Positions 17,902 through 54,615 of a stretch of 64,000 bases of DNA are shown piece by piece. How positions within the stretch are numbered: the first letter of the stretch is position 1; each line of letters begins with the position of its first letter. Both the position numbers and the translations under genes were made by a program. The DNA comes from Marinigracilibium pacificum (GTDB lineage: Bacteria; Bacteroidota; Bacteroidia; Cytophagales; Cyclobacteriaceae): the NCBI RefSeq assembly GCF_012926615.1, contig NZ_JABBNU010000003.1, positions 372,001-436,000 on the forward strand, given 5' to 3'. The notes under the pieces were generated by a model. That model made no database searches and had not been told where the DNA came from. It saw nothing but the letters and a program-made list of their open reading frames with translations.

Positions 17902-18282
17902 TTATCTTTTCCCATAATACATAGCATCGGTTCTTTTTTTGATAATCATACGACGAAATGAATATCCTAGAAATGCTCCGAGAATCCCACTTATTCCAGC
18001 AAACAAAGCAGTGATAACATGTAGATATATTCCTGATGTCAGCCCGAATACTCCTGCCATCCGTGAACTCATGATAGCATCATTTGCATTATCAATGCTT
18101 ACAGTAAGAATAATAGATGCCAATACGGAACCAAAAAAAGAAGAGGTTACCATATTTCCGGCATTCATTTTAAATATTGCAAATAATATTATTGAAATAA
18201 TCATCGGGCTATACCAAGGCAAATATGAGTGCAGAAAATACACCAACAACCCGGTTAATATTGTCATTCCTAATGTCTTCAT
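17902..18282 (-). CDS. Small membrane protein of unknown function
   Basis: I do not recognise a family. The 126 residues hold about four hydrophobic segments (roughly 5-20, 24-40, 48-65 and 85-108) and a basic C-terminus (FRRMIIKKR), so an inner-membrane protein with a cytoplasmic tail is likely. The ATG lies one base beyond the stop of the penicillin-acylase-family gene, which implies translational coupling and a shared transcript ending at the hairpin at 17854. The glycine-rich helix content (FAGISGILGAFLGY) suggests helix packing. No function is inferred. Confidence 0.8.
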   Translation of the reverse strand: MKTLGMTILTGLLVYFLHSYLPWYSPMIISIILFAIFKMNAGNMVTSSFFGSVLASIILTVSIDNANDAIMSSRMAGVFGLTSGIYLHVITALFAGISGILGAFLGYSFRRMIIKKRTDAMYYGKR

Positions 18283-18283
18283 C

Positions 18284-20707
18284 TTATTTTTGTTTTATCC
18301 TCAGCACTACATTATTAGTTAGCAGATCTTCTTTTTTCTTCGCAAAATTCAGTTTGTAATATTTACCTGCTGCCCAGTCTCTTATAAACTGATTGTATTT
18401 GCTGCTTCCCGGATTCCCTCCTTGTCCACCGGCTATTATTGCATACCCTTGAACATTACCAGGCTCCATTGATACAATCATCCTCCAGGCCGGACCGTGA
18501 TTTTCTTTGGTAGCATTAACAATATTTTGCCCACCACCAATATTTAAATGTGTCTCATTAAAGGATTTAAAAGCAGGAACCAGGTGTGATGCATAAGTAT
18601 CTTTATATGATGCCCATGTCAATGAATCATTTCTTTGGGATAATAAAGTATCGATAACTGTAACTGATCTTATAAAACTTTCCCTAATTGAATCTTCTAG
18701 AGAAATATTATACTTCTCAATATATGGTTTAATTGTTCCATTTATTAGCAATGTTGATAAGGCCCCATCTTCAGGCATCAATACCGGTCCTCCAAGATCT
18801 TTAATTGGTTTCCAGATCATATCAGTCAAGGTATCATACCAAATTTTAAAATAAACTGGCCCAACTTTATCTGGATCATTATTAAAATCCCATTTGTTAA
18901 GAGTGCTTAATACTGCCTTTTGACTTGCTGACATATCTATGATATTAAGCGTATCCAACATCCATGGCAATATTTCTTTTGCTTTAAGGTTTTTATTATT
19001 TTGCTGTAAAGTCATCATATCCTCTACAGTAATATTATTCATCTCAGCTAACTCAGTATTTATAACTCTGTTTCTGTAATGTTCATAATCTCCTGAAAGA
19101 TACCAATATGGATAGTCGGTAGAAGTTGGAACTTGGTTTGCTGAACTCACAAATCCACGCTTTGGATTTATTGATGACGCATTATTTTCACTTGGAATAT
19201 AATCAGACCAATCATATACGCTGGAAGTTCCATCCATTACAAATTTTCCTTGTTCTGGAAATCTAACTGGAAATTTCCCTTGAATGGTCATTGCTATATC
19301 ACCATTAGTAGAAGCAAACACAAAATTCTGTGCCGGTGACTTATAGTGATTTAATGCTAATCGATATTCATCATAATTTTCAGCACTATTTAATTGAACA
19401 AAAGTTTTCAACTCATTACTTCTTTCATGAGCTATCCACTTCATTGCAAACCCCTTTCTTGGAGAATCAGCACCAAAGGATTCATCATACATTACCGGCC
19501 CATGATGAGTGTATATTACTGTATCAATAAAACTTTTCTTTCCTTTAATCTCGATAGTTTCGATCTTCGGTCGGGTTGGATAAAATTTCCCTTCATGCAG
19601 GTATTGCTTTTTGTCTTCATTCTTAAATTCTATAGAGTACCAATCAACCAAATCCCTTCTGGCATTGGTTACACCCCATGATATATCTCTGTTAAAACCG
19701 CTAATCACAGCAGGAGATCCTGGTATTGATGCTCCCATAACCTCATATCCTGGAGCCTGAAGGTGAATAATATACCAGATTGAAGGCAATTGAAGTCTCA
19801 AATGTGGATCATTAGCTAAAATTGGGTAACCTGATTTAGTTTTACTTCCTGAAACTGCCCAATTATTTGAACCATTATCTTTATCTGGCTGATCAAACAT
19901 ATTTTCGGGATAAACTGAATTTATTGAATCAATATTCTTTCCGTACTGCTGACCTTTAAAATCCCACTTCCTTTCAGAATTTATAATTGGATCTTCATTT
20001 TCAAGGTGCTCCGGGTATATCAGATCAAATATTTCTTTCCCAAGTTTTTGATATAGGTTTGTATATTGAAAATCATTATTTCTGAAGGCCAGATCATTAG
20101 CCATCATCTTTAATAATAATGCTGTTTTAAGGGGAGTCCATTTCTCAGGTTTGTAATCCAGAATTTTGTATTCTATAGGCAGATCCTTTTCTTCTAACTG
20201 AGATATATAATGATTTGCTCCTGCGGTATAAGCCAGCACAACCTCCTTTGTTTCAGGATCATCCATTAAAGCTTGCAGAGCATTTTCAGCTGCAAACACC
20301 AAGCCTCTTCGTCGCATCGATCGATCATAATCTAATGCTATATCCCCAACAATTTCAGAAATTCTCCCGGCTGCTCCTCTAGTTTGAAAGTCCATTTGCC
20401 AAAGTCTGTCTTTAGCTGTAACATAACCCTGAGCAAAGAATAAGTCATATCTATTTTCAGCAAAGACATGTGGTATATTTAAGCTGTCATAAATAATTTC
20501 AACAGTTCCTACCAAAGAATCTACTTCCAAATCTATGGATATTGGTTCCTGATTTACAGGTTCAGCATTTTTCCAAAAGCCATCGCTAACGGATAATATT
20601 TTACCTGGTGGTGGCACATTAGTAGTGCCAAACGAAATTGGATTTGAAAGAAAATATACCCATGATAGACACAGGACAAGAGCGAAAAAAAATCTTAGCC
20701 AGTTCAT
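18284..20707 (-). CDS. Penicillin acylase family protein (Ntn hydrolase)
   Basis: The start is taken at the ATG at 20705-20707, because the longer frame would begin with TTG at 20749 and lacks a better leader. This start places a signal-anchor (WLRFFFALVLCLSWVYFL) at the N-terminus and gives 807 residues. DNGSNNWAVSG contains the autocatalytic Ser280 that becomes the N-terminal nucleophile of the beta chain; the preceding alpha chain includes GYVTAKDRLWQMD and RGAAGRISEI. The family cleaves amides such as penicillins or acyl-homoserine lactones in the periplasm. The natural substrate cannot be told. It is coupled to the small membrane protein gene. Confidence 0.93.
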   Translation of the reverse strand: MNWLRFFFALVLCLSWVYFLSNPISFGTTNVPPPGKILSVSDGFWKNAEPVNQEPISIDLEVDSLVGTVEIIYDSLNIPHVFAENRYDLFFAQGYVTAKDRLWQMDFQTRGAAGRISEIVGDIALDYDRSMRRRGLVFAAENALQALMDDPETKEVVLAYTAGANHYISQLEEKDLPIEYKILDYKPEKWTPLKTALLLKMMANDLAFRNNDFQYTNLYQKLGKEIFDLIYPEHLENEDPIINSERKWDFKGQQYGKNIDSINSVYPENMFDQPDKDNGSNNWAVSGSKTKSGYPILANDPHLRLQLPSIWYIIHLQAPGYEVMGASIPGSPAVISGFNRDISWGVTNARRDLVDWYSIEFKNEDKKQYLHEGKFYPTRPKIETIEIKGKKSFIDTVIYTHHGPVMYDESFGADSPRKGFAMKWIAHERSNELKTFVQLNSAENYDEYRLALNHYKSPAQNFVFASTNGDIAMTIQGKFPVRFPEQGKFVMDGTSSVYDWSDYIPSENNASSINPKRGFVSSANQVPTSTDYPYWYLSGDYEHYRNRVINTELAEMNNITVEDMMTLQQNNKNLKAKEILPWMLDTLNIIDMSASQKAVLSTLNKWDFNNDPDKVGPVYFKIWYDTLTDMIWKPIKDLGGPVLMPEDGALSTLLINGTIKPYIEKYNISLEDSIRESFIRSVTVIDTLLSQRNDSLTWASYKDTYASHLVPAFKSFNETHLNIGGGQNIVNATKENHGPAWRMIVSMEPGNVQGYAIIAGGQGGNPGSSKYNQFIRDWAAGKYYKLNFAKKKEDLLTNNVVLRIKQK

Positions 20708-21836: not shown

Positions 21837-23093
21837 TTAATTTTCTAAATTAAACTCAGCAAATTCTTTGATCTGATGGTATTCTCCCGAGTCTATTTTG
21901 GATTTTACCGCTTCGAAAGCAGCTATAGTTTGCTCAACATCTTCAAGTGTATGTGCAGCTGTAGGAATAATCCTAAGCATAATTACATCTTTTGGCACTA
22001 CCGGATACACTACAACAGAACAGAAAATCCTATAGTTTTCTCTCATATCGTGAGTAAGTCCTGTAGCATCAGGTAATCCACCTTTTAATATCACTGGAGT
22101 TACCGGTGATTGAGTGGTTCCAATATTAAAACCTCTTTCTTTCAAACCTCCTTGTAAAGCATTAACAACTTTCCAAAGATTGTCTTTAAGTTCAGGTCTT
22201 GTTCTTAATAATTCTAATCTCTTCTTTGCTCCTATTACCAAAGGCATTGGCAATGACTTTGCAAATATTTGAGATCGGGTATTATATCTTAAGAAATTAA
22301 TAATTTCCTTATTTCCGGCAATAAAAGCTCCGATGCTTGCCATTGACTTTGCAAATGTTGAGAAATACAGGTCAATATCATCCTGAACTCCCATCATCTC
22401 ACCAACACCTGCACCGGTTTCACCCATAGTACCGAAACCATGAGCATCATCAACAAACAATCTAAATTGATATTTCTTCTTAAGATCTGCAATTTCTTTA
22501 AGTGCACCGCAGTTTCCTGACATACCAAAAACACCTTCAGTTATTACAAGAATACCTCCACCGGTTTCACCTACTAATTTTGTAGCACGCTTCAATTGAG
22601 TTTCTAAGCTCTCCATATCATTATGCTTGTAAACAAAACGTTTACCCATATGAAGACGAACCCCATCTAAAATACAAGCATGACTTTCAGCGTCATAAAC
22701 AATAACATCTTTTCTGTCTACAACCGCATCGATGATTGATAGTACACCTTGATATCCGAAATTAAGCAACATTACGGCTTCTTTCTTTATAAAATCAGCC
22801 AACTGCTGCTCTAATTCTTCGTGGTGCTTTGTATTTCCTGACATCATTCGGGCACCCATCGGATAAGCAAGACCCCACTCAGCTGCTGCATCAGCATCAG
22901 CCTTTCTTACTTCAGGGTGATTAGCCAAACCCAGGTAGTTATTCAAACTCCAGGTCAACACTTCTTTACCCTGAAAGCGCATGCGTGGCGCAATCTCTCC
23001 TTCCAATTTAGGGAACATATAATACCCTTCACTTCTCTGTGAGTGCCTTCCTAGAGGCCCCATATCAGCCAGTAATTTTTCAAATAGATCCAC
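21837..23093 (-). CDS. Alpha-oxoamine synthase family enzyme (serine palmitoyltransferase / cysteate acyltransferase-like)
   Basis: This 418-residue PLP enzyme belongs to the family of KBL, BioF and serine palmitoyltransferase. Lys249 in STFAKSMAS is the Schiff-base lysine, His138 in DAESHACILDG should stack on PLP, and Asp215 with His218 in VDDAHGFG bind the cofactor. It condenses an acyl-thioester with an amino acid. In Bacteroidota such stand-alone enzymes can make the long-chain base of sphingolipids from serine, or capnine from cysteate, as in gliding Cytophaga relatives. The sequence alone does not decide between them. A good promoter lies at 23127-23159. Confidence 0.82.
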   Translation of the reverse strand: MDLFEKLLADMGPLGRHSQRSEGYYMFPKLEGEIAPRMRFQGKEVLTWSLNNYLGLANHPEVRKADADAAAEWGLAYPMGARMMSGNTKHHEELEQQLADFIKKEAVMLLNFGYQGVLSIIDAVVDRKDVIVYDAESHACILDGVRLHMGKRFVYKHNDMESLETQLKRATKLVGETGGGILVITEGVFGMSGNCGALKEIADLKKKYQFRLFVDDAHGFGTMGETGAGVGEMMGVQDDIDLYFSTFAKSMASIGAFIAGNKEIINFLRYNTRSQIFAKSLPMPLVIGAKKRLELLRTRPELKDNLWKVVNALQGGLKERGFNIGTTQSPVTPVILKGGLPDATGLTHDMRENYRIFCSVVVYPVVPKDVIMLRIIPTAAHTLEDVEQTIAAFEAVKSKIDSGEYHQIKEFAEFNLEN

Positions 23094-23126
23094 AGCTATT
23101 TTATTTTAGATTGTTAAATCAAGTTT

Positions 23127-23159
23127 CAAAATTAGCAAAACACATCCGTAAACCAAAAA
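23127..23159 (-). promoter_or_regulatory. Promoter of the alpha-oxoamine synthase gene
   Basis: The minus strand reads TTTTTG, then 19 bases after the TTG, then TAATTTTG. Both elements match the Bacteroidota sigma-ABfr consensus (TTG at -33, TAnnTTTG at -7). Transcription would begin near 23120, leaving a leader of about 27 bases before the ATG. Confidence 0.8.
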
Positions 23160-23319
23160 TTGCCCCCATATTTTAGTGCTTTTGGGGATAAACTCACAAA
23201 ATTTCGTTAATTAGCATACGCTTTACTTTAAGCTCATTTAAAGCTTTATTTAATACCCTAATCATTTACGTTAATCTATGATAAGGGTTTTTTAAATACG
23301 CTAACCCAATTACATCTGT

Positions 23320-24825: not shown

Positions 24826-26147
24826 TGGCTGACATTCTTCCAATCAGAGCTTGGCGGTACAACGAAAGTAAATTCAATGATCTTGAAGAGTTAACAGCTC
24901 CTCTCTTTGATGTGGTATCAAATACTCAAAGAGAGCAGCTTTATAAAAACCCCTTCAATAGTATTCATTTATCAGTTCCTTTAGGTCCTGACCCAATTGC
25001 TAATGCTCAAAAGAAACTTGAGGAATGGAAAAATAATGAAATAATTAAGCTCGATACCATACCTGGTATTTATGTCTATTACCAGTACTTCAAGCTCCAT
25101 GGTGAAAAAAAGGAATATGTTAGGAAAGGATTTATTTGTAACATCCGTGTCCATGACTGGGATGATAAAGAAAAAATAAACTCAAATGACGCCATTCTCA
25201 GACATGAAAACACAATTCCTAATGCTGTAAATGACCGAATAGAACTTTTACAGGCAACTCAAATTCAAGCTAGTCCAACTCATGGTCTTTATTCTGATAA
25301 GGAACATCAATTAGAGAATTTAATGGATGAAGCCATCAAACATCCAATTGCTATTACTGAAGATTATCAGGGAGTAAAGGATGTTTTAGGCGTTATTCAT
25401 GATTATGAGTTGATAAAGAAATTCATAAAGGTTATAAAAGACCGTTCAATTATCCTGGCAGATGGTCATCATAGATATGAGGGTGCACTTTCATATTTCA
25501 AAAAAATGAAGAGTGATAACCCTAATCATACTGGAAATGAACCATATAATTTCCATATGATGTATCTGACAAATATTGAATCAGATGATTTAAGAATTTT
25601 ACCAACACACAGACTCATTAATGGTATTGAAAACTTCGATATTGATGAAATTCTGAAAAGAACAGCTGAATGGTTTACTATAAAACCTGTAGATAATCCG
25701 TTCGACATTGGTGAAGTTATCCTTGGTAAACCCTGGGCATTCGGTTTGGTATTTAAAGATCAGACATATAAAATCAGGCTAAAACCAGAAATGATAGATC
25801 AGATTTCCTGGAATTTCCCTGACATAATAAAAAAACTAGACCTGACAGTATTGCATTACTACTTTATTGAAAAAGTATTGGGTATTCCAGGGCGAGATCA
25901 GAGAAAAAGTTCCGAGATTTCGTTTGAAAGAAATTTCACTTCATGCATTAATTCTGTTGTTACTGAAAAATCACAATGTGCATTGATCACGCAAGAATTA
26001 TCTGTTGAAGATGTCAAAAATGTATGTTACAGTGGATATACTCTACCTCAAAAATCAACATACTTCTATCCAAAAACCATTAGTGGCTTTTTATTCGGAT
26101 CATTAAAGGAAGATGAATTTTACACGACCCCTCATATTAGCTTCTAG
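24825..26147 (+). CDS. DUF1015 family protein
   Basis: The 440-residue cytoplasmic protein fits the DUF1015 family, with the N-terminal PIRAWRYNESKFNDLEELTAPLFDVVSNTQREQLYKNPFNSIHL-type opening (motif around residues 5-48) and the conserved ILADGHHRYEGAL segment near residues 210-222. No catalytic function is settled for the bacterial family that I can state with confidence. The start overlaps the accC stop by one base and its 3' end overlaps maf by 35 bases in another frame, so the three are co-transcribed. The tight coupling with maf is unusual. Confidence 0.85.
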   Translation: MADILPIRAWRYNESKFNDLEELTAPLFDVVSNTQREQLYKNPFNSIHLSVPLGPDPIANAQKKLEEWKNNEIIKLDTIPGIYVYYQYFKLHGEKKEYVRKGFICNIRVHDWDDKEKINSNDAILRHENTIPNAVNDRIELLQATQIQASPTHGLYSDKEHQLENLMDEAIKHPIAITEDYQGVKDVLGVIHDYELIKKFIKVIKDRSIILADGHHRYEGALSYFKKMKSDNPNHTGNEPYNFHMMYLTNIESDDLRILPTHRLINGIENFDIDEILKRTAEWFTIKPVDNPFDIGEVILGKPWAFGLVFKDQTYKIRLKPEMIDQISWNFPDIIKKLDLTVLHYYFIEKVLGIPGRDQRKSSEISFERNFTSCINSVVTEKSQCALITQELSVEDVKNVCYSGYTLPQKSTYFYPKTISGFLFGSLKEDEFYTTPHISF

Positions 26148-26691
26148 GTCACCAAGGAGAAAGCAATTAGTAGAGCAACTTGGACTAAGTGTTATTGTTC
26201 AACCGATGGATATTGAAGAAACTTATCCAGACACACTAGACCCATATAAAGTCCCTGAATATCTGGCAAGAAAAAAGGCTCTTGCATTTGAAAAAATCAC
26301 GGATAATGCCATTATTCTTACAGGAGATACAGTTGTAATTCTCGACAATAAAATTCTTGAAAAACCAGCAGACAGAAATGAAGCAATTAATATGCTTAGC
26401 TCCCTTTCTGGTAAAAAACATGATGTCGTTAGCGGGATATGCTTAAGAGACAATTCAAACATTATTACTGCATCAGAAACAACCACTGTTTGGTTTAATA
26501 ACCTATCTATTGAAGAAATATCTTATTATGTAGACAATTACAAACCATTTGATAAGGCTGGAGCTTATGGAATTCAAGAATGGATTGGAATGATTGGTGT
26601 GGAAAAAATTGAAGGTAGTTATTTCAATGTAGTAGGTTTCCCTATTCATCTGGTTTATCAAAAATTAATTCAATTCAATAAAGGCAATTAA
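26113..26691 (+). CDS. maf: Maf-like nucleoside triphosphate pyrophosphatase
   Basis: At 192 residues it has normal Maf length. LILASRSPRRKQLVEQLGL is the signature opening, GDTVVILDNKILEKP holds the catalytic acidic residue, and DKAGAYGIQEW with VEKIEGSYFNVVGFPI are the conserved C-terminal motifs. The family hydrolyses non-canonical or pyrimidine nucleotides (dTTP/UTP in the YhdE branch) to monophosphates. The ATG at 26113 is required to include the LILASRSPRR motif, so the 35-base overlap with the DUF1015 gene appears real. Confidence 0.92.
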   Translation: MNFTRPLILASRSPRRKQLVEQLGLSVIVQPMDIEETYPDTLDPYKVPEYLARKKALAFEKITDNAIILTGDTVVILDNKILEKPADRNEAINMLSSLSGKKHDVVSGICLRDNSNIITASETTTVWFNNLSIEEISYYVDNYKPFDKAGAYGIQEWIGMIGVEKIEGSYFNVVGFPIHLVYQKLIQFNKGN

Positions 26692-32571: not shown

Positions 32572-32689
32572 AAGTAATGCTTATTTTCAGGTGATATTTT
32601 TCAAAACAATATACAAATTTATAAGATTATATCGGAATAACATTAACTTGATACCAGAATACCAAAATCACTATTGACCTCAATCTTTC

Positions 32690-34960
32690 ATGTATAGAAA
32701 ACTTGCAAGATATTTTCTTTTTACAGCCCTGTTATTCACAATTTTCTTTGGCTACTCACTAAAAGATGTTGGCTTTGATTATGATTTCGAACGTTTCTTT
32801 CCAGAGAAAGATCCGGATTTAACTTATTACAATAAGTATAGAGAGGTTTTTGGTGAGGACAATGACTATTTTCTGCTTGGAATAAATTCTGAGAATGAAA
32901 ATTTTCTAGATACCTCATTTCTTAAAAAAACAATCATACTCAAAGATTCGCTCCTTAAAATAAAAGGTATCACTAATATCATTTCGCCACTTGATGCCAA
33001 AAAGATGGTGAAAACACCACTTGGAATGGTTCAAGTCCCATACTTCCACCCTGATTCTCACTCAAAACTAAATCAGGATATTGAAAGATGGGAAAATGAA
33101 AAACCTGCACCTTTCTATGATCTAACAAATATAGATAAAGGAGCAATTGCTCTACTAATTATTCATGAACCTATAAAAGAGGATATTGGAGCCTCAAGAG
33201 ATTTATTTCAAAAAATAGAATCTACTACAGGAGCTTTTTTTAAAGACTACAAACTCGCCGGGAAGCTGAAAGCTCAACCGGTCTTTGTAGATAAAATGCA
33301 AAAGGAACTATTACTATTTCTTTCCATATCGGTGGTATTAACAACCATCATTCTATTTTTAGTTTTCAGAAGTTTCAGAGGGATAATCTTTCCACTTTTG
33401 ATTGTGGTTGTGTCAGTATTATGGACAATTGGATTCATGACAATTACTGGTAAAAAACTTGACTTACTTATGGTTATGCTACCTACAATCCTGTTTGTTG
33501 TGGGTATGTCTGATGTCATTCATTTCTCCAACAAATACATTGAAGAATTAAGACAAGGTAAACCAAAACTTAAGGCATTAATTAAAACAGTAAGAGAAAT
33601 CGGACTAGCGACATTCCTTACCTCATTAACCACAGCAATAGGTTTTTTCACTTTATATACTCTAAACATTGCGCCGATTAGAGAATTTGGAATCTATACA
33701 GGTATAGGAGTTTTTATGGCTTATATGGTAACACTCCTTGTATTGCCATCTCTATATATTTTCACAAAGAAGCCAAGGCAATCACACAACCAAAACAATA
33801 AAACCTTCTGGCTAAAACTGATGAGTAAATGCTTTAGGTTCGTCTTTAAAAACAGAAGAGCAATTCTTATTTCTTCAATTGTTTTGACCTCAATATGTCT
33901 TATAGGAACATCCAGTATAAAAGTTAATGCATTTCTTATTGATGACTTGCCTAAAGATGATCCACTGAAACAGTCATTTGTATATTTTGATGAAAACTTC
34001 GGTGGAGTAAGACCTCTGGAAATAGCTATTAAAAGCGAGGACAATAATTCATTATTAGATTTAAAGCATGCAAAGGAGATTGAAAAAGTAGTAAACTTTA
34101 TAGATACAGCCTACCATGCGGGAAATATATTATCAATCAATACCATAATTAAAAACACTAACCAGGCACTTCATTCAGGGAAATATGAATTTCATAAAAT
34201 CCCTGAATCAACTAATGATTTTAGAAAAATCGAACCTATGCTTGATGTTTTAAGGAAGCGGGGTGATTTAGATATTTTACTTGATAGTGGCGAAACTTAT
34301 TCAAGGATCACAGCCAAAATCAAAGATTACGGTAGTGAAATAACCACTCAAAAAAATATTCAGTTTAAGGAATATATAGAAAGTAACATTGACAATTCGC
34401 TAATCAGTGTACGATTAACAGGTACCTCAATTTTAATTGACAAATCAAATAATCTATTAATAGGTAATGTTCTAAAAGGAATGGCTATTGCATTAATTGT
34501 AGTAGCATTATTGATGGCAATACTTTTCAGAAGCTGGAAAATGATTATCATTACCTGGATTCCGAATTTAATTCCATTATTGATAATGGCTGCAATCATG
34601 GGATTTTTTGATATTAACCTCAGACTTAGTACCGGAATAATATTTACAATTGCTTTTGGAATTGCTGTTGATGATAGCATACATTTTTTATCAAAGTTCA
34701 AACTAGAACTAGATGAAGGAAAAAGTGTGCTTTACTCCTTAAAAAGAGCTTACCTCAGTACCGGAAAAGCAATAATCCTGACATCATTAATATTAGTGTC
34801 AGGATTTCTAAGCTTGGTGCTATCTGATTTTGGAGGAACCTTTTATACAGGATTACTAATCGGAATCACATTACTCATTGCAATGGTTATCGACTTGACT
34901 GTATTACCGGTCCTTATATTATTAATTTTCAGAGATAGCGATTCCAGAATAAGAAGATAA
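32690..34960 (+). CDS. MMPL/RND superfamily membrane transporter
   Basis: The 756-residue protein has two repeats, each with one leading helix, a periplasmic domain and a block of five helices. The first block runs about 205-350 and contains GMSDVIHFSNKYIEELRQGK; the second, about 605-750, contains GIAVDDSIHFLSKFKLELDEGK. These are the paired sterol-sensing-like cores of the MMPL/HpnN-type RND exporters, which move lipids or hydrophobic solutes outward. It stands alone without adaptor or outer-membrane partner, and converges with the pspC gene two bases after its stop. Substrate unknown. Confidence 0.88.
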   Translation: MYRKLARYFLFTALLFTIFFGYSLKDVGFDYDFERFFPEKDPDLTYYNKYREVFGEDNDYFLLGINSENENFLDTSFLKKTIILKDSLLKIKGITNIISPLDAKKMVKTPLGMVQVPYFHPDSHSKLNQDIERWENEKPAPFYDLTNIDKGAIALLIIHEPIKEDIGASRDLFQKIESTTGAFFKDYKLAGKLKAQPVFVDKMQKELLLFLSISVVLTTIILFLVFRSFRGIIFPLLIVVVSVLWTIGFMTITGKKLDLLMVMLPTILFVVGMSDVIHFSNKYIEELRQGKPKLKALIKTVREIGLATFLTSLTTAIGFFTLYTLNIAPIREFGIYTGIGVFMAYMVTLLVLPSLYIFTKKPRQSHNQNNKTFWLKLMSKCFRFVFKNRRAILISSIVLTSICLIGTSSIKVNAFLIDDLPKDDPLKQSFVYFDENFGGVRPLEIAIKSEDNNSLLDLKHAKEIEKVVNFIDTAYHAGNILSINTIIKNTNQALHSGKYEFHKIPESTNDFRKIEPMLDVLRKRGDLDILLDSGETYSRITAKIKDYGSEITTQKNIQFKEYIESNIDNSLISVRLTGTSILIDKSNNLLIGNVLKGMAIALIVVALLMAILFRSWKMIIITWIPNLIPLLIMAAIMGFFDINLRLSTGIIFTIAFGIAVDDSIHFLSKFKLELDEGKSVLYSLKRAYLSTGKAIILTSLILVSGFLSLVLSDFGGTFYTGLLIGITLLIAMVIDLTVLPVLILLIFRDSDSRIRR

Positions 34961-34962
34961 AG

Positions 34963-35190
34963 CTAGTATCCTCTATTATTTCCGTAATATTGTCTCTCCG
35001 GCATTATAACCCATAAAATAATGTATACTATTAATCCAGGAAATGCAGCACTGAATAATGACACTAATACATAAATGATTCTTAGCAGACTAGAATCCAT
35101 ATTAAAATACTCTGCCAGACCGCCAATTACTCCTGCCACCATTTTATCTCTTGAAGATCTTCTCAACTCTTTTTCATTATAATTCGCCAT
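34963..35190 (-). CDS. PspC domain protein
   Basis: The 75-residue protein is a minimal PspC domain: RRSSRDKMVAGVIGGLAEYFNMDSSLLRIIYVLV, then a hydrophobic helix pair (about 33-62) and a short basic tail. Members are small inner-membrane proteins linked to envelope-stress responses, though many Bacteroidota copies have no known role. It is a single gene converging with the MMPL transporter, the two stops being 2 bases apart. A LacI-like site lies 135 bases upstream. Confidence 0.9.
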   Translation of the reverse strand: MANYNEKELRRSSRDKMVAGVIGGLAEYFNMDSSLLRIIYVLVSLFSAAFPGLIVYIILWVIMPERQYYGNNRGY

Positions 35191-35324
35191 ACTGCTATAA
35201 GTTTAAATTCAATTAATAAGGTAATAGATATTAACTTTTTGTTGCAATATATCAAAAACCATTTAAGCATTCTTCGATACAAAGCATCATAACAATATCT
35301 AATCACAATTCATTCCTAAGTTTT

Positions 35325-35334
35325 CAAACGATTG
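35325..35334. promoter_or_regulatory. LacI-like half-matched site upstream of pspC
   Basis: caaacgattg is identical to ten bases of the site at 45999-46010 upstream of the susE-like gene. It lies 135 bases before the pspC start. Whether it acts on pspC is unknown. Confidence 0.3.
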
Positions 35335-35676
35335 ATTATCAATAATTTAACATAAACACACTAAATTATTTCTGTCCAATACTGAACACCCTTATTGAAA
35401 AAATGTACACTATACCTAATAGATATTTCTTTCATCGAAATCTCACATACTTTATGATGCATACAATAATGACAATCTATTAACACATAATAAAATTAAA
35501 GTCAAAACACCCAAAAGCACTCCAAAACAAAATTTTAAACTGAATTAACCACAACTAACCAAATAATCACACACCATTAAACAATAAACTAAAAATTTTC
35601 ATTTGCAAATAATTAAAAAAACTTACATCTATAAGATTTTAAAAAATTGTTAATGTTTAAGTGACAGATTATGAGA

Positions 35677-35684
35677 TAGCTTTG
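35677..35684 (+). promoter_or_regulatory. Candidate -7 element for the small membrane ORF
   Basis: TAGCTTTG matches TAnnTTTG exactly. Transcription would begin near 35691, nine bases before the Shine-Dalgarno-like AAGGAG at 35700-35705. No TTG was seen at the normal -33 spacing. Confidence 0.5.
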
Positions 35685-35718
35685 TAAGACTAGCTAACTA
35701 AGGAGATATAAGTGAGAT

Positions 35719-35811
35719 ATGGATTTGTTAAGTATTTTTGTTTTTGCGATAGTTGTTGGTGGACTGATGTTTGGTAAATCAATTAAGCACGAGATTAAAC
35801 ACAGTAAATAA
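35719..35811 (+). CDS. Candidate 30-residue single-span membrane protein
   Basis: The frame encodes MDLLSIFVFAIVVGG followed by LMFGKSIKHEIKHSK: one hydrophobic helix of about 18 residues and a basic tail with three His and Lys clusters, an inside-positive orientation. An exact TAnnTTTG element and an AAGGAG sequence, rare in this AT-rich leader-poor genome, precede it in order. The distance from AAGGAG to ATG is 13 bases, longer than ideal. I recognise no family. It converges with the FabH-like gene. Small size means it could be chance, but the ordered signals argue for a real gene. Confidence 0.5.
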   Translation: MDLLSIFVFAIVVGGLMFGKSIKHEIKHSK

Positions 35812-35833
35812 TTTTTTTATATTTCTTATGGGG

Positions 35834-36775
35834 CTATTTTTTCAACAGCATACTCCCATAAGAATAACCACCTCCAAACACACTGAGGGCGATAAGGTCA
35901 TCTTTCGACAATCTATCAAATCTTTCTGATAGACCAATTGTACATCCGGCACAACCAGTATTACCCAGGTATTCAACATTGGAAACTGTTTGCTCAGTTC
36001 TTAGACCAAGTTGATCTCCTACATTTTTGGTAATTCTGAGATTTGCCTGGTGTGGAATAAAGTAATTAAGATCCTCTGGAGTTAAATCATTCTTAGAAAG
36101 AATTTCTCTGGTGATTTCAGTCATATACTGACAGGCATGAATGAAAACATCTCTCCCGTTTGGCATATACAAACCATCAATAAGATTCAAATTCACACTT
36201 TCATTTGCCTTCCCTAGTGTACCGCCTCCACGAGTAATAATATCAAGAACCTTAACACTTTCTTCAGAATGCTTCTTTTTAGTTATATAAAGAGCTGAGG
36301 CTCCATCACCCCATAAATGCCCAGCCTTTTTATCTGTCACATCTGCAAATCTTGAATTATGGTCAGAAACCACAGCAAGGGCTTTAGTTGCTTTTCCCAT
36401 AGCAAAATACCCTTCTATTACTTCCATAACATTAATAAAAGAAGAACAAGCAGAGCTTAAAGATAAAACCATGGCATTTTCTGCACCCACATATCGTTGT
36501 ACAGCATGACCCAAAGTAAATATAGTATCAAATGGAGTATAAGTTCCTCCAACAATTAGATCTACATCTGATAAATCAACATCAATTTTTAATTGAAGAT
36601 GCTTTACGGCATCAATACCCATAGTATTGGTATTCTCATCATCTTCGGCTTTACGGCGTTCTCTCATCCCTGTTCTTTCTGTAATCCACTCATCCGAAAG
36701 ACCGGATTTATCCAAAAAGAAATCATTATTCACTACCGAATGAGGCAGGTAATGGGCAATTTGATCAATATACAT
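35834..36775 (-). CDS. 3-oxoacyl-ACP synthase III family protein (FabH-like)
   Basis: The 313-residue thiolase-fold enzyme keeps the KAS III triad: Cys110 in LSSACSSF, His242 in IPHQANLRI and Asn272 in LGNTGCAG. GGGYSYGSMLLKK closes the fold. KAS III enzymes condense an acyl-CoA with malonyl-ACP. The sequence diverges from housekeeping FabH (for example the LDKSGLSDEWITERTGMRERR opening), no other fatty-acid gene is adjacent, and a second FabH elsewhere is likely, so a specialised ketosynthase role is possible. The gene is divergent from the esterase gene. Confidence 0.88.
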   Translation of the reverse strand: MYIDQIAHYLPHSVVNNDFFLDKSGLSDEWITERTGMRERRKAEDDENTNTMGIDAVKHLQLKIDVDLSDVDLIVGGTYTPFDTIFTLGHAVQRYVGAENAMVLSLSSACSSFINVMEVIEGYFAMGKATKALAVVSDHNSRFADVTDKKAGHLWGDGASALYITKKKHSEESVKVLDIITRGGGTLGKANESVNLNLIDGLYMPNGRDVFIHACQYMTEITREILSKNDLTPEDLNYFIPHQANLRITKNVGDQLGLRTEQTVSNVEYLGNTGCAGCTIGLSERFDRLSKDDLIALSVFGGGYSYGSMLLKK

Positions 36776-36834
36776 TTGCTGGTTGAGTTAATTCGGTGTC
36801 AAATATTTAAATTAATGAGCAAAATTCCTTTAAA

Positions 36835-37713
36835 ATGAAGCAATATTTTAGTTCTTTTCTATCATACGTATTTTTTTCAACTTTGATTACCTGCGCTTTG
36901 CATGCTCAGGAACTAGAAGAAAATACTTTATTAAATAACAGTTGGGTAAAAGCTAAGTCACTTTCTTCAAACTCTCGAGCTAACGATAATGTCTATGTTT
37001 ATACAGATTCATTATCCAACCAATATATTAAAGGAAAGCGAGGCTTAATTATTGCTTTACCTAATTCGTATTTTGAGAATCCAGCAAAACACTACCCTGT
37101 TATTTACATGATGGATGGTCAGAATTTATTTGATGCTGAAACTTCCTATGCAGGTGAATGGAATGCAGACTCTACCCTCCTAGCATCAGGTAGCCAGTTG
37201 ATTATTGTGGGCATTGATAATGGTAGCGCCCAACGCATAAATGACTATACGCCACGTGAACACAATGAATATGGAGGGGGCAATGGCAAAAACTTTCTGA
37301 AGTTTATTATTGAAACTGTAAAGCCTTTAATAGACACTCAACTTAGAACCATACCAGATAGAAATCACACATATATCGGAGGTAGTTCATTAGGAGGATT
37401 AATAAGTATTTATGCCCTCATGAACTTTGAAGAAACCTTTAGTAAAGGAATAATCTTTTCCCCATCATTTTGGTTTGATGACCTGATCATGGGTGAATTA
37501 AAAGAATGGAATCCCAAACATAAAATTAGTTTATATCTCCTAGTAGGTGGAAAAGAAGGTGAATCTATGGTTCCCGATACTGAATTAGCATATTCAATCT
37601 TAAAAACGAAAAAAAAGATCAGAAGCAAACAAATTACCGACATAAATGGAGAACACAATGAAAGATTCTGGTCTAAATACCTGTCATACGCCATTGAATT
37701 CATAAAATACTAA
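36835..37713 (+). CDS. Secreted alpha/beta-hydrolase, esterase D/IroE-like
   Basis: The 292 residues begin with a signal peptide (FSTLITCALHAQ, cleavage near 24). HYPVIYMMDGQNLFD is the typical opening of the putative esterase family (PF00756), and IGGSSLGGL holds the nucleophile Ser185. GEHNERFW near 273 would supply the catalytic His. Members cleave siderophore, carbohydrate or cinnamoyl esters outside the cytoplasm. The substrate is unknown and no siderophore gene is near. The stop lies against the A-tract of the terminator at 37719. Confidence 0.87.
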   Translation: MKQYFSSFLSYVFFSTLITCALHAQELEENTLLNNSWVKAKSLSSNSRANDNVYVYTDSLSNQYIKGKRGLIIALPNSYFENPAKHYPVIYMMDGQNLFDAETSYAGEWNADSTLLASGSQLIIVGIDNGSAQRINDYTPREHNEYGGGNGKNFLKFIIETVKPLIDTQLRTIPDRNHTYIGGSSLGGLISIYALMNFEETFSKGIIFSPSFWFDDLIMGELKEWNPKHKISLYLLVGGKEGESMVPDTELAYSILKTKKKIRSKQITDINGEHNERFWSKYLSYAIEFIKY

Positions 37714-53700: not shown

Positions 53701-54075
53701 AGACCATGATTTTGATCCGGCAGTGCCTGATTCCTGAGTTATATTTTTAAATTTCAGGTTACCAAGGTTAAGGTATAATGAATTGGCACCCATATTTGAA
53801 ACCATATAAATATCCAGTAACCCGTCATTATTTATATCACCTAGTCCGACTCCACCTCCATTATAAAAGTTCCTATAGGTATAAATATTAAAATCCTCAT
53901 CATATTTGAGTGTATTATTAAAGTCAATTCCTGTAATATCAGGAGATAATAATTCAAACCTCAAGACTTTATCACTTTCATTCTTTTTATCACATGAAAA
54001 ACAAAAAATCAATAATGAAAAAAACAGAAACAGCGATAATAGTTTTAAACCTATTATTTTAATTTTGCTACACAT
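50716..54075 (-). CDS. FG-GAP/VCBS repeat lipoprotein with ASPIC/UnbV domain, second copy
   Basis: At 1,119 residues it parallels the downstream gene. The lipobox is FCFSC (Cys28). FG-GAP units include DINNDGLLDIYMVSN, DINADGFLDIYVCNS, DYDNDDDLDVYLLN and DIDLDGDYDLII-type repeats, and the ASPIC/UnbV domain (NAVGAIIHIWYNSNYQ to DSVWVQWPDMSWQ) lies near 520-590. The two proteins share a conserved opening after the signal (GIDFNNTLKYDEDFNIYTYRNFYNGGGVGLGDINNDG-type segment). They may act as a heteromer on the surface. The ATG overlaps the upstream lipoprotein stop by 22 bases. Confidence 0.9.
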   Translation of the reverse strand: MCSKIKIIGLKLLSLFLFFSLLIFCFSCDKKNESDKVLRFELLSPDITGIDFNNTLKYDEDFNIYTYRNFYNGGGVGLGDINNDGLLDIYMVSNMGANSLYLNLGNLKFKNITQESGTAGSKSWSTGVTLVDINADGFLDIYVCNSGDIKGDDKQNELFINQGDNTFIEKAKEYNLNDSGYGTHALFFDYDNDDDLDVYLLNNSYQAIGSFDLRRNERPKRDPEGGDKLLRNDNGKYVDVSEEAGIYGSVIGFGLGVTAGDINNDGWIDLFISNDFFEHDYIYINNGDGTFTESQDNYLKSMSLTSMGADMADINNDGRQDIFVTDMLPSDYQRYKSKTTFENWDKYTYNWENGYGRQYTRNALHLNNGANFSEIGRFAGVEATDWSWGALLADFDNDGLKDLFVSNGILKDMTDLDFITYISNKNVTQKILEGGKIDYKELIDLIPEQKIPNQIFKNLNGLKFDEKSSDWGLSTPSFSNGSAYGDLDNDGDLDLVINNNEMNAFVYENKTIQKDSTNFIKFLLKQPGSGNINAVGAIIHIWYNSNYQNQIIVPVRGFQSCSDIRANFGLGKYSQIDSVWVQWPDMSWQKVTSTELNNLNTIIKSETVSHKPFIQGNPSIEIFTDEVIITQHKENRFVDFDKDRLVYNMRSTEGPALSIGDINGDGISDFFLGGAKGNSSQIILGSLSGGYTIVTPEILFKLKEGEDVDAVLFDADNDNDLDIFIARGGREYDIYSAQVEDVLLLNDGKGGFSNATGNLPNRNNPSSSSSVDIIDFDLDGDYDLIIAERYSVVGIGAPSNIILLENTGHGKFVDSSNKLPKDLKSHLGMITDLKVGYINDDEYPDLVVVGEWMSPVILMNKNKGFIISFENKHELSGWYRSVNLEDINKDGKTDIILGNLGLNTRFQASVNQPLHLFINDFDKNGAVDHVFAQYQKGGKLYPTALRHDLVKQMPYLNKRFLKYNDFKNKTVQQIFGEGLNSAIDLSISNLSSGVLFQKDNGFKWKPFPDQAQFSTVESSVFLDVNNDGKLEILLGGNFMEVKPEIGAYDASFGTLLIYNHNYDEFEVIPNSITGLNLPGAVRDLKLLNQGGDLFLVNANNNGPLSLFRIETQTPSISKD

Positions 54076-54560
54076 TTTGTTTCGAATTTCCCTTCGGGTT
54101 GAAGTGTAATAAGGATAGCATCATCCTGATAATAAAAGTTATTTTTCGATTCTTCAGATCTTATCAATTCTACATGAAAGATTTCTCCAATTAACAGTCT
54201 GGATTGTTGAAGTTGAAAATTTTGATCTAGTTCCTTATTCCAGGGGGACCATTGTGGAAAGCCAAAATACAATGTAAACTGGTTTATTAATTGATTCTCG
54301 TAATCAGGAAAAAAATTCAAATCAACCTGGTATTTCATTGAATCAATTTTATGGTAGACACTTATACCTTTCCAACCTTGCCTTATCTCACCTTTAAGAT
54401 TATACACTGTGCAAGAATCGATAAAAGCATCCCTGTCCATACCATACCCTACTCCAAAGAATAGAGGCTTGCTAACATCAAATGGAGACTGTTTATCAAA
54501 CTCCTCACCTCCGTCAAGACCACATGAAGTAATCAAAAGTATCAACAATACATATCTCAT
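54054..54560 (-). CDS. Small lipoprotein of unknown function
   Basis: The start is set at the ATG 54558-54560 because the longer frame would begin inside a hairpin terminator (54586-54615). It then opens MRYVLLILLITSCGLDGG, a lipoprotein signal with Cys13, and totals 168 residues. The rest is a mixed alpha/beta sequence with many aromatic and polar residues (FFGVGYGMDRDAFIDSC, QVDLNFFPDYENQLIN). I recognise no family. Its place between susD and the ASPIC genes, and the 22-base overlap with the next gene, tie it to the same transcript. Confidence 0.8.
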   Translation of the reverse strand: MRYVLLILLITSCGLDGGEEFDKQSPFDVSKPLFFGVGYGMDRDAFIDSCTVYNLKGEIRQGWKGISVYHKIDSMKYQVDLNFFPDYENQLINQFTLYFGFPQWSPWNKELDQNFQLQQSRLLIGEIFHVELIRSEESKNNFYYQDDAILITLQPEGKFETKCVAKLK

Positions 54561-54585
54561 AATAATAAAATTGTATTTGAATAAA

Positions 54586-54615
54586 ATATGGCCCAGCAAA
54601 ATTGCTGAGCCATAT
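54586..54615 (-). terminator. Hairpin between susD and the downstream lipoprotein gene
   Basis: atatggc (54586-54592) pairs with gccatat (54609-54615), with an inner agcaa/ttgct stem, and a T-rich tail follows on the minus strand. Lying inside the operon after susD, it could partly stop transcription so that SusC/D are made in excess over the downstream lipoproteins. Confidence 0.7.

Follow-up and report, generated by a model that had tools for sequence, protein, structure and literature searches.

A conserved 30-codon reading frame that is very probably an overlooked gene for a single-helix membrane protein in one genus of Bacteroidota

Small membrane proteins, as characterised in PMC7549839, have fewer than 50 residues, consist essentially of one helix and are encoded by small open reading frames (ORFs) of their own that escape annotation, and according to PMC11539335 the few that are well studied regulate larger membrane processes or proteins. 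The small ORF described here was found in a 64,000-nt stretch of Marinigracilibium pacificum DNA (the window), and like proteins of the Escherichia coli YohP type its product would have fewer than 50 residues, one (predicted) transmembrane helix and an ORF of its own; no sequence relationship between them is apparent, and the Lys/His tail and the range within one genus of Bacteroidota are peculiar to the present protein. With CydX, KdpF, AcrZ and MgtS it shares a length of about 30–50 residues, a single helix and the mode of packing proposed below, whereas those four have known partners and a wider distribution and the small ORF stands alone. A third comparison is with type I toxins that have one transmembrane helix, such as DinQ (the subject of PMC3567139), peptides of similar size whose general features include a long structured leader that silences translation. 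DinQ is like the small ORF product in length, hydrophobicity and positive C-terminus, whilst here neither a second copy nor a structured leader nor an antisense promoter box was found. The kind of protein is already familiar and the member is new; a literature search by the genus name Mangrovivirga returned no title about this locus.

The features of the locus, with positions counted along the window, are as follows.
32690–34960, plus strand: MMPL-type permease gene.
34963–35190, minus strand: pspC, the gene for a PspC-domain protein.
35654–35658, plus strand: possible −33 region TGTTT, found by eye, a weak match to the TTTG consensus.
35677–35684, plus strand: −7 promoter box TAGCTTTG, of the TAnnTTTG type (TACCTTTG at the equivalent place in the relatives).
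35689–35718, plus strand: predicted mRNA leader of ~30 nt, its start site deduced from where the −7 box lies.
35700–35705, plus strand: AAGGAG, 13 nt away from the ATG and unconserved; it probably does not serve as a Shine-Dalgarno (SD) sequence.
35719–35811, plus strand: the small ORF, 93 nt with ATG start and TAA stop, for a predicted 30-residue single-helix, basic-tailed protein (MDLLSIFVFAIVVGGLMFGKSIKHEIKHSK).
35823–35864, no strand assigned: conserved inverted repeat with an 11-bp stem and a 20-nt loop, a candidate 3′-end hairpin.
35834–36775, minus strand: 3-oxoacyl-ACP synthase III (FabH)-like gene, 313 aa.
Beyond the fabH-like gene, plus strand: putative esterase gene.

The ORF, the TAGCTTTG box and AAGGAG are all present where an earlier note on this DNA had placed them. 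That note had also set the ORF upstream of a fabH-like gene, which has to be corrected, since the minus-strand fabH-like gene has its end at 35834, so that the two genes converge (tail to tail); with pspC the small ORF is divergent, ~500 bases of AT-rich DNA separating them. The stretch 35201–35672 (plus strand) is the G-poorest of the window and is also poorly conserved: there are 25 G and 79 C in the 422 bases of 35219–35640, and a G count this low occurs in 6 of 6358 segments of that length, all of them in this stretch.

Sequence comparison makes it very probable that the ORF is a genuine, overlooked gene for a tiny membrane protein with one helix: its frame, its promoter box and its neighbourhood are kept in two other species of the genus, and a real small gene explains the data far better than any alternative. 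All three genus genomes, including that of the window, carry the ORF at the same locus with the same start and stop codons, and in both relatives (M. cuniculi and M. halotolerans) it is of equal length, 77% identical in amino acid sequence without a gap, and has the same neighbours on both sides. Conservation of the reading frame had been proposed in the earlier note as a check on the ORF, and this check was run and passed, the frame being intact in both of the other genus genomes (2/2). The M. cuniculi and M. halotolerans ORFs are one synonymous base apart and, since two of the three genomes differ by a single base in the ORF, the coding claim is a strong one resting on effectively one comparison, with translation predicted.

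Differences between the window and the two relatives are distributed over codon positions 1/2/3 as 3/2/11 and 3/2/10 (third positions: 11/16 and 10/15), with a dN of 0.103, a dS of 0.87 or 0.71 and a dN/dS of about 0.12–0.15. Seven residues differ (F7L, V8I, A10V, I11V, V13A, G19S and E25D); the first six are invariant, and the tail (residues 20–30) changes only by E25D whilst several of its codons differ synonymously between genomes. The BLOSUM62 total of 124 compares with a mean of 97–99 when the same base changes are scattered randomly, and was reached in 40 and 63 of 20000 such trials, although the count of amino acid differences is by itself only slightly out of the ordinary (equally few in 631 and 998 of 20000 trials). 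The antisense frame with the third codon positions in common is also open, scores 117 against 124 and, in the species of the window, contains no start codon. Identity with the relatives in 30-column blocks is 0.30–0.60 from 35218 to about 35612, 0.77 in an upstream patch at 35613–35641, 0.53–0.67 over the promoter and leader and 0.77–0.87 in the blocks starting at 35732–35792, and high identity continues past the ORF into the hairpin and the fabH-like gene.

According to PMC6847099, the primary sigma factor of Bacteroidota has TAnnTTTG as its −7 box, and the refined Flavobacterium consensus is TAHHTTTG, in which G is almost never found at the H positions. Measured against this Flavobacterium consensus, TACCTTTG of the relatives fits, and TAGCTTTG, the window's version, contains a G that is disfavoured. 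TAnnTTTG stands in the same place in 3/3 genus genomes, and the promoter claimed in the earlier note is upheld in that a Bacteroidota-type box is present at a position conserved in both relatives. Read by eye, the spacing between TGTTT and the −7 box is identical in all three genomes, and in all three the predicted leader begins with ACTAGCTAA. The mean leader length reported for F. johnsoniae is 33 nt (PMC6847099), and position −3 of the ORF is G in all three genomes, A being favoured in Flavobacterium (PMC6847099).

The upstream signals had further been described as sparse in this genome, which is right for positions just upstream of genes and wrong for the strings as such: the window holds 89 copies of TAnnTTTG against 92.9 expected from shuffles, and 53 of AAGGAG against 35 expected. 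TAnnTTTG occurs within 60 nt upstream of 4/40 large ORFs, and within 25 nt upstream AGGAG occurs at 0/40 and the looser AGGA or GGAG at 5/40, counts that cover 40 of the 43 large ORFs (17939–18322, 26113–26691 and 54054–54599 were left out) and take the first possible start codon of each as its start, so that some starts are misplaced. The over-representation of AAGGAG in the window (0/100 shuffles as high) probably reflects coding sequence, because the minus strand, which carries most genes, has 44 of the 53 copies.

The AAGGAG upstream of the small ORF had been taken for a Shine-Dalgarno sequence, an argument to be dropped because the motif is distant from the ATG, is missing in both relatives, where other A/G-rich sequence takes its position, and belongs to a signal mostly unused in the phylum. 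Bacteroidota ribosomes are described as mostly ignoring SD sequences (PMC9976891; PMC6847099); PMC9976891 reports that in Bacteroidia the anti-SD is sequestered, so that ribosomes fail to recognise the SD, and that strong SDs precede some ribosomal genes, Cytophagales included. A 21-aa GTG ORF at 35712–35777 with better spacing to AAGGAG was rejected, its GTG being AAA in both relatives; there, the frame overlapping it shows 68% identity across 90% of its length.

At the protein level, the hydrophobic helix and basic tail ascribed to the ORF product in the earlier note are supported, as a prediction, by hydropathy (best 16-residue mean 2.7) and by AlphaFold2, which predicted one helix over residues 3–29 with a mean pLDDT of 80 (89 and 86 in the first two ten-residue blocks, 65 in the tail). 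The tail, KSIKH[DE]IKHSK, is near-invariant and follows the pattern K-x-x-KH-x-x-KH; as judged from the sequence, its basic residues lie on one face and I22/I26 on another, with H24 and H28 spaced i/i+4, and within the helix G15 and G/S19 form a small-xxx-small pair. By the positive-inside rule basic residues are found on the cytoplasmic side, so the predicted topology is N-out/C-in, with D2 outside and K20, K23, K27 and K30 inside. No profile was matched in Pfam (E up to 1), NCBIfam or PHROGs (both E up to 10), and there was no match in the PDB.

Outside the genus, a family profile search of 390 genomes gave no convincing relative, as judged from the matches listed and ten that were read. At E up to 1 a match was found in 193/390 genomes, about chance level, and the best match below the three genus genomes had an E of 0.00122. 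Among the matches listed most were partial and many lay inside frames of about 340–355 aa; of the ten short-frame matches read, one had an ATG before the match, none had TAnnTTTG upstream and eight were overlapped by a larger open frame. An order-level search with the single protein (E up to 0.05) matched 1/390 genomes, the window's own, in a set evidently without the two genus relatives and overlapping the family set. Among the nearest relatives 12/59 genomes matched at E up to 10, and those below 0.09 were the three genus genomes alone. Phages gave no match at E up to 10, plasmids gave two records, both from Staphylococcus at E 10 and regarded as chance matches, and in viral contigs none of 121 pattern matches was confirmed.

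Neighbourhoods were compared at 19 fabH-like, 30 pspC and 30 MMPL loci, two of each from this genus. A filter for 20–45-aa ATG ORFs with a hydrophobic helix and a basic tail was run on 17/19 fabH loci (the genus ones left out), 30/30 pspC and 30/30 MMPL loci, and no counterpart of the small ORF was found at these neighbourhoods in other genera. Apart from the ORF of the genus itself, six ORFs that passed at the loci L046, L053, L059 and L090, and one at L115, were by eye unlike the small protein and were taken as unrelated. A fabH-like profile scan of genome contigs matched 1 of 13 candidate stretches, that of M. halotolerans. ‘Genus-restricted’ here means that no relative was detected outside the genus; at 30 residues and 77% identity within the genus, such a protein may no longer be recognisable beyond it.

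We consider the following whole explanation to be probable, with some reserve: a stand-alone small gene whose inner-membrane product tunes a larger membrane protein. The TAnnTTTG promoter of the primary sigma factor would give a short mRNA, with a ~30-nt leader, the 93-nt ORF and a 3′-end hairpin in common with the fabH-like gene, and translation without a Shine-Dalgarno interaction would yield a 30-residue single-pass inner-membrane protein with its acidic N-terminus outside and its lysine/histidine tail inside. The helix might pack through its small-xxx-small face (G15 and G or S19) against a larger integral membrane protein, the basic tail, as an amphipathic continuation of the helix, might bind the head groups of lipids or the partner's cytoplasmic side, and such binding could tune the partner's activity or stability. 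By analogy, regulation of a larger membrane protein or process is the most likely role, because well-studied small membrane proteins act in this way and the near-invariant tail and conservatively changing helix fit it.

Two other readings, a function at the RNA level and a type I toxin, are less supported. The hairpin bears on the former. Its left arm occupies the space separating the two stop codons, its right arm falls within the final codons of the fabH-like gene, and over the three genomes all 33/33 cells are paired, with one compensatory T-A/C-G change; neither strand has a T-run after it, and a scan for the usual intrinsic terminators gave none. We infer that it may protect the two convergent mRNAs at their 3′ ends or set where they end. 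That conservation runs past the stop codon into this hairpin, and that a plus-strand transcript would overlap the fabH-like mRNA at its 3′ end, would also suit a conserved RNA, either a small RNA or a 3′-end antisense to that mRNA, in which the ORF is incidental. We regard this as unlikely given the third-position bias and conservative replacements in the ORF, a transcript structure not beyond that of shuffles and the lack of any Rfam match in the window; the right arm of the hairpin is also constrained by the fabH-like codons, and its covariation, from three sequences, is not significant (149/500 shuffles reach it).

A type I toxin, a hydrophobic peptide that would harm the membrane whenever its silencing by an antisense RNA failed, is suggested by the size, the one hydrophobic helix and the positive C-terminus that recall DinQ, yet it too appears doubtful. 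A search covering the TAnnTTTG promoter type only gave no such box from 33134 to 37514 of the minus strand, nor in either relative from 200 bases before to 500 after the start codon. The leader is short (~30 nt from the inferred start site) and the transcript fold z-score is −0.31. The three genomes hold no second copy beyond weak matches at E 0.07 or more, no phage, plasmid or viral copy was convincing, and the chromosomal neighbourhood is conserved. One candidate second copy, in M. cuniculi (L013, E 0.07–0.4), was rejected as lying inside, and antisense to, a 528-aa ORF.

A bolder version of the membrane-regulator reading, which we think quite improbable, is that the small protein founds a new lineage-specific family whose HxxxH/lysine juxtamembrane helix responds to a metal ion or to the charge of lipids and so controls a protein of membrane stress, possibly its divergently encoded PspC-domain neighbour, as an envelope-stress regulator private to Mangrovivirga. 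Of separate interest, the diverged region upstream of pspC in M. halotolerans contains two TCGTACACA repeats 21 nt apart (1172–1201 of locus L002). Both of the other genomes have counterparts, which in the window are TGAACAC and TGTACAC at 35380–35412, and the pair is a possible binding site for a regulator acting on pspC.

A chance ORF in an AT-rich intergenic region, which the shortness of the ORF and a mean of 2.3 ATG ORFs of 25–60 aa per random region would allow, is the least probable reading by our estimate and is already largely refuted by the frame, start, stop and promoter box conserved in both relatives and by the rarity of helix, basic tail and box together in random regions (0.067%). 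These were 3000 first-order sequences modelled on this intergenic region; 0.6% of them had an ATG ORF of 25–60 aa that combined a strongly hydrophobic stretch with a tail whose net charge was at least +3, and the 0.067% are those with TAnnTTTG within 60 nt upstream as well.

Conservation of other short ORFs was assessed over 6241–44887 of the window, the part syntenic with M. cuniculi, where 36 ORFs of 20–99 aa lie in 4312 bases between large ORFs. The filter (at least 75% identity and at least 95% coverage, no gap or stop, in both relatives, with the synteny of best matches unchecked) was passed by 5/36, counted by hand from the table; the M. halotolerans stretch matches the window from 21504 onward, so four ORFs before that point are without a true counterpart there. 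The five that passed are
the small ORF;
a Hc1 histone-like gene (PF07432);
an ORF antisense to Hc1;
an ORF antisense to pspC;
a 21-aa GTG ORF at 23132.
The pspC gene itself (88% and 87%) fails solely since its match in one relative includes a stop. Two further conserved stretches were noted. The first, 23125–23200 (minus strand), upstream of a class I/II aminotransferase gene (21837–23093), is strongly conserved in the genus, contains the 21-aa GTG frame (85–90% identical in both relatives) and could be a promoter, a leader element or a very short ORF. The second, 32591–32677 (plus strand), in the gap between a thymidylate synthase gene (minus strand) and the MMPL permease gene (plus strand), holds a 28-aa GTG frame that is 92% identical over 89% of its length in both relatives, and may be a regulatory element or a shared promoter region.

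The finding leaves long-standing open questions untouched. If translated, the small ORF would add a protein family absent from the libraries searched. Small genes of this phylum are hard to find because most of its genes are without Shine-Dalgarno signals, and on the same condition the small ORF would show that two or three related genomes can suffice to recognise one amid AT-rich intergenic sequence.
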